From Eubacteriales bacterium (GTDB lineage Bacteria > Bacillota > Clostridia > Lachnospirales > Lachnospiraceae): a DNA stretch of 52,165 nucleotides. Location of the stretch: positions 1 through 52,165 of the forward strand of contig JAUNOK010000019.1 in assembly GCA_030537195.1 (NCBI GenBank), given 5' to 3'. Shown here piece after piece: positions 16,416 through 19,045 of the stretch. Positions within the stretch are counted from its first letter, which is position 1. Each line of letters begins with the position of its first letter. The notes below the pieces were generated by a model. That model searched no databases, had not been told where the DNA came from, and saw nothing but the letters and a program-made list of their open reading frames with translations. Made by a program: the position numbers and the translations under genes.

Positions 16416-16712
16416 CTATGATTCAACAGTTTTAGGTACAATAAATCCTGATTCATTACATTCAGGTGCATTAGCAAGAGTTGCCTCGCTTCCGTCACCA
16501 TTAGTAACAACATCTTCTCTCATTACATTATTAACAGGGAACACATGTGACATAGGTTCTACCCCTGTAGTATCAAGCTCACCGAGCTTGTCAATATAAT
16601 CAAGCATGCTCGCCATATCCTTCTTGGCAGCTTCCTTCTCTTCATCAGAGAGTTCAAGCTTGGCAAGGATACCAACATACTCGATAGTCTCATCACTAAT
16701 TACATTAGCCAT
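16416..16712 (-). CDS. gatC: Asp-tRNA(Asn)/Glu-tRNA(Gln) amidotransferase subunit C
   Basis: A 98-residue linker subunit that wraps the GatA-GatB interface. It contains the family core [15 protein letters not shown], then [22 protein letters not shown] and NVMREDV. The frame is open 32 codons further upstream, but that part is the structured repeat block. The ATG at 16712 has AAAGGAG at eight bases and starts the conserved domain. Confidence 0.95.
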
Positions 16713-16743
16713 GTGTGCGTCTCCTTTCGTTGTCATATATACG

Positions 16744-16925
16744 CCTGGAGAAATTGGATAAATCATCACAAGACACGCTTTCGCTACTTGGAGACTCGCA
16801 GCGGACACTAACCGAAAGCAGCCACCTCCGTCTGAAAAGCCAGCTTTTCAGACTCCGCCAACTGCTTTCGCTAAGTGCCGGCGGCTCCAAAGTGTCTTGT
16901 TCACGCTTTATCCAATTTCTCCAGG
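16744..16925. repeat. Giant nested hairpin 1 between aspS and gatC
   Basis: A 182 bp palindromic structure. The outer 19 bp arms are perfect (16744-16762 with 16907-16925). Inside them lie CAAGACAC/GTGTCTTG (16769-16776, 16892-16899), CGAAAGCAG/CTGCTTTCG (16813-16821, 16862-16870) and GTCTGAAAAGC/GCTTTTCAGAC (16830-16840, 16843-16853). It is much more GC-rich than its flanks. No coding is supported. One arm carries a 21 bp stretch (16872-16892) whose exact inverse is at 17091-17111. Confidence 0.85.
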
Positions 16926-16930
16926 CTCAC

Positions 16931-16989
16931 ACATCTACCCCGGAACGAGCGCACGACATCGCTTTGCTCGTCGCCGTTGGGCGAGATGT
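16931..16989. repeat. Small nested hairpin 2
   Basis: ACATCT (16931-16936)/AGATGT (16984-16989) enclose ACGAGC (16945-16950)/GCTCGT (16966-16971). It lies between the two giant hairpins. A further GGGAA/TTCCC follows. Confidence 0.55.
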
Positions 16990-17060
16990 AGTGGGAATCT
17001 CCACTTCCCTTTCGTCCGAGAAATTTATATTTAGTTAGGTATTGTAGCAACGAACAGGCA

Positions 17061-17231
17061 GCGAGGTTTTATAAGTTCGCAAGCAAGGTGCTTTGGAGCC
17101 GCCGGCACTTAACGGATTCGGCTGTGGAGGTTGGGAAGCTTGCTTACCATACCTCTATAGCCGAATCCGTTTAGTACCGCTGCGAGCGACAAGCAGCGGG
17201 AGCGTGCCTGCGGTGAACTTATAAACCTCGC
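17061..17231. repeat. Giant nested hairpin 3 between aspS and gatC
   Basis: Outer arms of 17 bp (17061-17078 with 17215-17231, one bulged T) enclose a perfect 13 bp stem (AACGGATTCGGCT at 17111-17123 with 17159-17171), GAGGT/ACCTC and AAGC/GCTT. It begins 16 bp past the aspS stop on the minus strand. It shares an exact 21 bp inverted segment with hairpin 1, so the two are related units. Confidence 0.85.
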
Positions 17232-17247
17232 AGCCGTCCGTTGTTCA

Positions 17248-18993
17248 CTAATCCCTAACCTTAATATGAACTTCCCTAAGCTGCTGCTCTGTTACCTCAT
17301 TTGGTGCTCCGCACATTAAATCCTGTGCTGTTCCGCTCATTGGGAATGGAATTATCTCACGGATATTCTCTTCATTTCTAAGGAGCATAATCATACGGTC
17401 AACACCTGGTGCCATACCAGCGTGTGGTGGTGCACCAAACTGGAATGCGTTATATAATGCTCCGAATTTTGCCTTTAATACTTCTTCATCATATCCGGCA
17501 ATCTCAAATGCCTTAACCATTATCTGCATATCATGGTTACGAACTGCACCTGATGATAACTCTACACCGTTGCAGACAATATCATACTGGTATGCAAGAA
17601 TATCAAGAGGATCTTTTGTATTAAGTGCCTCAAGTCCGCCCTGTGGCATTGAGAATGGATTATGTGTAAATCCAATCTTCTTAGTTTCTGGATCTCTTTC
17701 AAACATTGGGAAGTCATTAACATAACAGAATCTGTATGCATTTTTCTCAATAAGGTCAAGTCTCTCACCAAGTTCGTTTCTGATCTGTCCTGCGAAATAT
17801 GCAGCTCTGTCTTCCTTATCAGCGATAAAGAAGATTGTATCTCCTGCCTGAAGTCCTGCAAGGTCTTTGATTTCTCCTTTGAGTTCTTCTGGAATAAACT
17901 TATCGATTGGTCCCTTGTAGCTTCCGTCTTCAAGAACTTCAAGGTATCCAAGTCCACCCATTCCGATTCCTGTAGCGAACTTAAGTAACTTCTCATGCTG
18001 TCCCTTTGAAAGCTTTGCATGTACATTGATTGCTCTTACAGTCTTGTTCTGGAAAGGCTTGAATGTACATTTGTTAAAGAATTCTGAAAGGTCAATGATT
18101 CTAAGAGGGTTACGAAGGTCTGGCTTATCTGAACCAAACTCAAGCATTGCCTGCTTGTAGCTGATGATTGGATAAGGAGCCTGTGTAACTTCGTATCCTT
18201 CTGGTGCGAATTTGGCAAATGTTTCTGTAAGAACCTCTTCACCGATTCTGAATACATCTTCCTGTGTAGCGAAGCTCATCTCGAAATCTAACTGATAGAA
18301 TTCTCCTGGTGAACGGTCAGCTCTTGCATCCTCATCTCTGAAGCAAGGTGCAATCTGGAAATATTTATCAAAGCCAGATACCATAAGTAACTGCTTATAC
18401 TGCTGTGGTGCCTGTGGAAGAGCATAGAATTTGCCCTTATATTTTCTTGAAGGTACGATATAATCTCTTGCGCCCTCTGGTGATGAAGCACAAAGGATTG
18501 GTGTCTGGATTTCAAGGAATCCCATGTCTGTCATCTTCTGACGAAGGAATGCGATAACCTTTGATCTGAATATCATGTTATCCTTAACCTTCTGGTTTCT
18601 TAAATCAAGATATCTGTACTTAAGACGCACATCCTCTCTTACTTCCTTAGAAGTCTGTACTTCAAATGGAAGCTGCTGGTATACCTGTCCAAGTATTGTA
18701 ATCTTCTTAGCTTCAAGCTCGATTGTTCCTGAAGGAATCTTAGGATTGTAAGTCTCCTCATCTCTCTGCTCCATAATACCTTCGATAGCGATACACTCTT
18801 CCTTGTGAATACCATCAAGTAATGTTGTATCACGAAGTACCACCTGAAGTACTCCATACATATCTCTGAGGTCGATAAATGAAACTCCTCCGTGGTCACG
18901 GATGTTCTCAACCCATCCAGCAACCTTTAATTCCTTGCCGATGTAACTTTCATTAACTTCACTTAAGTTAACATCTCTGTACATGTTTGCCAT
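17248..18993 (-). CDS. aspS: Aspartyl-tRNA synthetase (probably non-discriminating)
   Basis: A 581-residue class IIb synthetase with an N-terminal OB-fold anticodon domain (GWVENIRDHGG), a catalytic core (motif 2 in CFRDEDARADRSPGEFYQ; motif 3 in HAGMAPGVDRMIMLL) and the bacterial GAD insertion. His34 in RDHGG is the residue found in non-discriminating AspRS; discriminating enzymes usually have Leu there. With gatCAB directly downstream, this suggests it also charges tRNA-Asn with Asp for amidation. GGAG precedes the ATG at 18993; upstream in-frame codons lie in the leader. Expression is under the T-box upstream. Confidence 0.95.
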   Translation of the reverse strand: MANMYRDVNLSEVNESYIGKELKVAGWVENIRDHGGVSFIDLRDMYGVLQVVLRDTTLLDGIHKEECIAIEGIMEQRDEETYNPKIPSGTIELEAKKITILGQVYQQLPFEVQTSKEVREDVRLKYRYLDLRNQKVKDNMIFRSKVIAFLRQKMTDMGFLEIQTPILCASSPEGARDYIVPSRKYKGKFYALPQAPQQYKQLLMVSGFDKYFQIAPCFRDEDARADRSPGEFYQLDFEMSFATQEDVFRIGEEVLTETFAKFAPEGYEVTQAPYPIISYKQAMLEFGSDKPDLRNPLRIIDLSEFFNKCTFKPFQNKTVRAINVHAKLSKGQHEKLLKFATGIGMGGLGYLEVLEDGSYKGPIDKFIPEELKGEIKDLAGLQAGDTIFFIADKEDRAAYFAGQIRNELGERLDLIEKNAYRFCYVNDFPMFERDPETKKIGFTHNPFSMPQGGLEALNTKDPLDILAYQYDIVCNGVELSSGAVRNHDMQIMVKAFEIAGYDEEVLKAKFGALYNAFQFGAPPHAGMAPGVDRMIMLLRNEENIREIIPFPMSGTAQDLMCGAPNEVTEQQLREVHIKVRD

Positions 18994-19045
18994 TGCAATC
19001 TCCTTTCTTTTCTGGACAGGCAAAATATTATGTCCTGTCAAATAA

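Follow-up and report, generated by a model that had tools for sequence, protein, structure and literature searches.

Facing nested palindromes between aspS and gatC belong to a widespread, so far unnamed hairpin family of Lachnospiraceae

The aspS-gatC gap

The window analysed here, a stretch of 52,165 nucleotides from a Lachnospiraceae genome (G000), carries aspS and gatC on the minus strand, and the gap between them (16712-17247) is occupied by two nested palindromes, E1 and E2 (Table 1). An earlier reading of the sequence alone had described the gap as filled by two GC-rich nested palindromes, and this description is correct: both are present and take up the gap, whose G+C content is 0.519 compared with 0.381 for the window. 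The lengths of 182 and 171 bp given at that time approximate the inner palindromes; the whole palindromes are longer, approximately 16707-16964 and 17020-17275, and extend into the start of gatC and the coding end of aspS. The perfect stems, put at 13-19 bp, were roughly right; a strict, ungapped, centred scan yields longest stems of 20 bp in E1 (16743-16762 with 16907-16926) and 11 bp in E2. The 21-bp segment at 16872-16892, noted as shared in opposite orientation, is the exact reverse complement of 17091-17111.

The cores of E1 and E2 represent the same nested-hairpin module of approximately 100-150 nt, facing opposite ways, with E1 oriented against the aspS-gatCAB operon. When 2079 positions of the window were scanned for palindromes, the top score (34) was obtained at the E2 centre, and the E1 centre (score 20) tied with one unrelated position, 31250. 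Folded as RNA, E1 reaches -92.5 kcal/mol (z -12.58) and E2 -115.5 kcal/mol (z -9.94), and none of 200 shuffled sequences was equally stable in either case.

Table 1. Features of the aspS-gatC region, in window coordinates
Feature	Position	Strand	Remarks
gatC	16416-16711	-	start set by similarity; longest ORF starts at 16808
gatC-side host arm	16707-16750	-	gatC start codon, ribosome-binding site and upstream bases
E1 inner palindrome	16743-16926	+	20-bp perfect outer stem; approximately the 182-bp palindrome described earlier
E1 core	16760-16908	+	covariance model R1, 96.3 bits; E1 is in R1's own alignment
Inverted, decayed copy of gatC start region	16920-16964	+	far side of E1
Spacer remainder	16965-17019	none	55 bp separating the two mirror copies
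Inverted, decayed copy of aspS end	17020-17061	+	far side of E2
E2 inner palindrome	17057-17235	-	approximately the 171-bp palindrome described earlier
E2 core	17075-17220	-	covariance model R1, 107.9 bits; E2 is in R1's own alignment
aspS-side host arm	17233-17275	-	last codons of aspS (...EVHIKVRD stop) and following bases
aspS	17248-19041	-	longest ORF

A dispersed family of hairpin cores

A BLAST search with the gap detected further pieces of it in the genome of the window and matched 9 of 22 genomes of the genus, the own genome included. A covariance model, R1, was built from an alignment of 20 copies. In the window it matches E1 and E2 only, in the own genome it has 22 matches, and it finds the core in 15 of the 22 genus genomes (own included), with up to 24 matches in each. 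Among 299 genomes of the family, drawn nearly all from different genera, 105 have matches; no more than 11 candidates were scored in any genome of this set, which makes its copy counts lower bounds. The 56 stretches of named contigs matched by a 20-nt pattern, in which two positions are two-fold, are labelled as Lachnospiraceae or other Clostridia.

The core matches span approximately 100-175 nt. The core is laid out as a side hairpin ACGCUNNCGCU, which reads A-C-GC-NNNN-GC-U and has two pairs, followed by the paired segments RCUU/AAGY, GY(U)CGC/GCGRC and CGGUACU/AGUGCCG, an A/A mismatch and a tip hairpin of variable length. In one genome (G302), seven matches to a single core are 78-88% identical over approximately 100-150 nt, and by eye the arms of the eight copies shown are mostly unrelated. 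At locus L269 of this genome, the 5' half of a core and its flank are partly duplicated in tandem, directly before a full copy. Small CTAAGC/GCTAAG-like hairpins are seen by eye nested within the tip or side hairpins of the core at eight loci of G208 (L276, L279, L280, L282, L283, L285, L288, and L289).

At the Rfam gathering score the window gives only tRNAs, and 14 copy-bearing loci give no matches; a permissive threshold produced seven weak matches, the best with an E-value of 0.093, which we read as chance. We recognised no description of this hairpin family in the open-access papers covered by our literature search. Two patterns had no match in viral contigs, and in plasmid records the only two matches lie on Lachnospira eligens replicons of approximately 627-629 kb. 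The single match in phage records (L451, MT839578.1 3353-4175) is a full-length match to the model with 78.2 bits. The record itself is an unverified 4175-bp faecal contig named 'Bacteriophage sp.' and may be a mislabelled bacterial contig. The family is real, widespread in Lachnospiraceae, and so far unnamed.

Occupied and empty sites

The aspS-gatC gap was compared in 19 of the 22 genus genomes. Four of them (G000, G001, G008, and G016) have the doublet, in gaps of 512-547 bp. In G017, whose AspRS is 97% identical, the gap is only 15 bp. A divergent core scoring 24-26 bits is present at this place in G002, G003, and G004 (L126, L124, and L127, respectively), where short repeated hairpins of type CAAAAGCGCTTCGCTGTTTG accompany it. 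Most genomes of the genus possess, besides the gatCAB-adjacent aspS, a second AspRS-like gene, approximately 40-42% identical (L140-L146 and others).

Further sites that are filled in some relatives and empty in others are L391, L396, and L006. The empty L391 site has no palindrome in G008, G016, and G001, and the insertion there has its own arms of 16-17 bp. A further stretch of approximately 8 nt is complementary to the flanking host sequence but carries little weight at this length. Candidate target-site duplications seen by eye (TA flanks in the G013 copies, a 3-bp repeat at L391, and TGTAA at L006) follow no consistent rule. Mobility of the element is well supported by these comparisons. 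The suggestion that the palindromes, if mobile, would be MITE-like and fit no family known by name holds, because copies are dispersed, relatives show both filled and empty sites, and Rfam has no match.

Facing doublets

Among the 150 matches listed, all 14 pairs of cores within 400 bp of one another face each other. Grouped by flanking genes, they represent approximately five independent sites, namely aspS-gatC, the loci of a 178-codon, a 146-codon and a 211-codon gene, and contig C331 of G009. The nine pairs separated by 400-2500 bp in the same list are oriented ++ in four cases, +- in two, -- in two, and -+ in one.

Pairing at the DNA level

In 96 distinct copies, 94.7% of the cells of the core are paired and 19 of its 21 pairs have changed on both sides (mean of shuffled controls 12.2, with none of 500 reaching the observed value), alignment A3 having been fitted to the R1 structure and thus being biased towards it. 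The 20 founding copies show such changes in 9 of 21 pairs, and the covariation signal is lost when the pairing partners are slid. Copies elsewhere and covariation of the stems, the absence of which the sequence-only reading had held to speak against an element, were thus both found.

Helices selected as RNA are expected to contain G-U pairs well above A-C mismatches. In the core, G-T mismatches number 62 and A-C mismatches 37, and a single position, which is T-G in 42 of the 96 copies and never A-C, contributes 42 of the 62, leaving 20 against 37. This position shows a strand polarity, so one strand is not interchangeable with the other. The outer arms, whose counts are independent of A3, contain 141 G-T and 178 A-C mismatches (94 of 106 copies, identical arms removed). 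Pairwise comparison of the arms in 11 sets of orthologs, likewise independent of A3, revealed 30 double and 154 single changes, with 49 G-T and 51 A-C, so the arms decay symmetrically.

With respect to tandem neighbour genes, 34 copies are in sense and 25 in antisense orientation (p 0.30); this count started from 102 distinct copies, of which 6 lie inside ORFs of at least 100 codons and 15 are without clear neighbours. A count of U-tracts at the arm ends gave zero, but with a poorly defined end point, and is given no weight here. Since G-U does not exceed A-C (one position aside), no significant orientation bias is seen, and all 14 listed close pairs face each other, a DNA element is indicated and not an RNA. 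Where pairing is kept, it is kept at the DNA level, a conclusion that is well supported. Of the stable RNA between aspS and gatCAB proposed earlier, the very stable folds stand, but a functional RNA is unsupported, given the lack of G-U preference in the arms, the occurrence of copies in either orientation, and the antisense position of E1.

Arms and mirror copies of host gene ends

Sequences adjacent to the core vary with the site. A motif search covering 438 loci, in which at least one match is due to chance, yielded 148 distinct 30-nt upstream arms falling into 75 clusters. In the aspS-gatC gap, the arm on the far side of E2 looks like the aspS end in inverted form, and that on the far side of E1 like the inverted start of gatC. 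We scored these mirror copies against 5000 first-order shuffles. For the aspS end, the scores (with the number of shuffles reaching them) are 20 in G008 (0), 14 in G000 (39), 13 in G016 (128), and 10 in G001 (1222), the G016 value being marginal and that of G001 not significant. For the gatC start region, they are 15 in G000 (1), G001 (0), and G008 (4), and 11 in G016 (58). G002, a genome without this doublet, has a similar aspS end, which is thus host sequence. A fold-back footprint at the window's own locus is supported by these comparisons.

The same test was applied family-wide to 120 contexts kept after removal of near-identical ones; the aspS copy of G001 was dropped in this step and three aspS orthologs stayed. 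Upstream coding ends are mirrored in 7 of 81 contexts at p<=0.01 and in 11 of 81 at p<=0.05, with 70 of 81 not significant, and downstream gene starts in 1 of 36. The seven contexts include the three aspS orthologs and one (L115) in which the end of a MITE overlaps the gene. Of the four species with the doublet at aspS-gatC, some thus have clear mirror copies there and others weak ones, and at most other sites none was detected. In a set of 20 doublets, hand-picked as facing pairs and including orthologs, the outer flanks are matched inversely in the spacer at p<=0.005 for 10 left and 14 right flanks. Such matches indicate that the palindromes continue outward, and the host arm can be told from the other only in cases with a gene end.

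Origin of the doublet and competing explanations

Taken together, the most probable reading is that E1 and E2 form an inverted doublet and that their family consists of mobile, non-autonomous DNA hairpins, which on insertion make a fold-back copy of the host DNA beside them. As to the molecular mechanism, we tentatively propose that hairpin cores cap free 3' DNA ends and prime fold-back copying of the host, and that two capped ends are then joined. Once the core had been attached to such a 3' end, its conserved strand would point away from the host; the foot of the core would snap back and prime copying of the neighbouring host DNA, producing the mirror arm. If both ends of a break were so treated and then joined, the resulting order would be host, core, mirror, followed by mirror, core, host. 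This is the arrangement at aspS-gatC, for which the joining of two ends, each having first gained a core of like polarity, folded back and been copied, may be the simplest route, and such two-end capping would account for the observation that the close core pairs found all face each other. Movement would need a paired core, the arms would be a footprint decaying afterwards, and the element would depend on an enzyme acting in trans. The doublet may affect the expression of aspS-gatCAB, though this would be a mere by-product.

Two other readings also start from mobile DNA. In one of them, which we consider unlikely, cores insert into the loops of pre-existing palindromes such as intrinsic terminators or MITE centres, in the manner of SMR-A repeats, and the arms are the earlier target sequence. 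In agreement with it, G001 and G008 have a plain terminator hairpin at L008 where G000 has a core within that hairpin, one copy in G302 occupies a place where most of the nine congener loci shown have a plain terminator (by eye), and in G208 and G013 cores occupy the middle of MITE palindromes. However, neither the empty L391 sites nor the 15-bp gap of G017 contains a palindrome, such insertion would not be expected to mirror a coding end, and the simple terminators may themselves be deletion relics, which the L404 loops in G000 and G008 resemble. Insertion into ready-made hairpin loops is possible for copies located at terminators; as a general model it was demoted on the palindrome-free empty site at L391 and the mirrored ends of aspS and gatC. 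The other reading, quite unlikely in our view, treats the copies as ordinary MITEs, whose terminal repeats are recognised by a resident transposase while the core is carried passively. The conserved ends AGRYRNTTGCGAAAC, common to the G013 and G208 copies, are indeed more frequent than a control pattern in G208 (107 vs 9), G013 (47 vs 3), and G151 (71 vs 9), but they are not enriched in G005 (7 vs 5) or G207 (7 vs 4), and the diversity of the 30 nt beside the core (75 clusters, the comparison covering these 30 nt) does not favour this explanation. In G013 and G208 the cores reside within MITE-like units with conserved ends, some of which lack the core and some of which have small hairpins nested in it. 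MITE-like units with the core at the centre and GGGGCTGTCGCATTAAG-type ends also occur at L407, L408, and partly L398; similar ends are presumably found in IS families. Reading frames next to single terminal repeats included no transposase recognisable by eye, several of these loci stopping at contig breaks. Looking for an autonomous partner through the terminal repeats led to MITEs and contig ends, again with no transposase identified on visual inspection of the reading frames, and ORF lists inspected by eye likewise revealed no transposase gene belonging to the element.

A structured regulatory or processed RNA under RNA-level selection, such as an attenuator, an RNase III site or an sRNA, would fit the very stable folds, the strong covariation and the strand polarity of the T-G core position. 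This explanation is improbable given that G-U is not enriched in the arms or the remaining core, that orientation bias is not significant, that E1 is antisense to the operon, and that the unit is missing from close relatives. Mobilisation of REPIN-like elements by a RAYT/Y1 tyrosine transposase appears highly improbable. Inverted doublets and compensatory changes are shared with REPINs as these are presented in PMC3116915, but Y1 matches (PF01797) do not correlate with the core copy number among 22 genomes (rho 0.07, p 0.77): G000, G009, G004, and G012 have no Y1 match despite 22, 16, 10, and 6 core matches, respectively, and G014, G019, and G021 have 1, 4, and 3 Y1 matches and no core match. 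A Y1/RAYT mobiliser is disfavoured by this independence.

If insertion with fold-back copying is correct, each event makes a new palindrome out of host sequence, and an apparently unannotated element, widespread in gut Lachnospiraceae, writes mirror copies of the sequence next to it. Otherwise odd long palindromes could then be explained, and the model would point towards an enzyme working on DNA ends or hairpins. The covariation of the core could mislead RNA-discovery pipelines into calling the element a riboregulator, and a comparison of G-U with A-C counts offers an easy way to separate such DNA palindromes from RNAs.

Comparison with described repeats

MITEs are small, dispersed, mostly intergenic elements with terminal repeats. 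The copies studied here are likewise small, dispersed and mostly intergenic, and some of them have terminal repeats; they differ in that the sequence adjacent to the core is locus-specific and shared terminal repeats are seen only in subsets. With the structured RNAs of Rfam they share a covarying secondary structure, whereas their mismatch pattern is that of DNA palindromes. We found no description of a fold-back mirror footprint in the open-access literature searched.

The closest described systems found, judged by the portions of the sources available, are the short mobile repeats of Haloquadratum and the REPINs. SMR-A of Haloquadratum walsbyi is a palindrome-associated repeat of approximately 110 bp with many copies, transposase-free by its size, and its mobilisation is called enigmatic; it has inverted termini, copies commonly more than 95% alike within a type, and inserts inside palindromes of IS605-type elements and PATEs (PMC3119063). 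Compared by description, the core family is similarly short, without room for a transposase, present in many copies and associated with palindromes, but the arms beside its core vary with the site, and those in the window look like the ends of host genes. Insertion into palindromes without duplication, as in SMR-A, is compatible with the copies at terminators and in MITEs, and not with those at L391 or aspS-gatC.

REPINs are doublets of REP sequences, extragenic, inverted, hairpin-forming, non-autonomous, and showing compensatory changes (PMC3116915, PMC3733652). The REP units are palindromes of 20-40 bp tagged GTAG or CGTC, those with GTAG being linked to RAYT genes (PMC3733652). The inverted doublets described above (14 of 14 pairs within 400 bp among the 150 matches listed, approximately five sites) are REPIN-like, but the core, at about 100 nt or more, exceeds the size of REP units as given in that source, and Y1 genes do not track the core copies (none in the own genome, with its 22 core matches). 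A survey of stem-loop families names Clostridium perfringens and C. tetani, and the string 'Lachnospir' is absent from its main text (PMC2267715).

A second dispersed repeat

Another dispersed repeat, of approximately 120-150 nt and containing GGATTGGACGTTGAAG, was observed in the right flank of L389 (query positions 2046-2200). Matches to this repeat number in the dozens in G001, with some also in G000 and G008; they often form short tandem runs.
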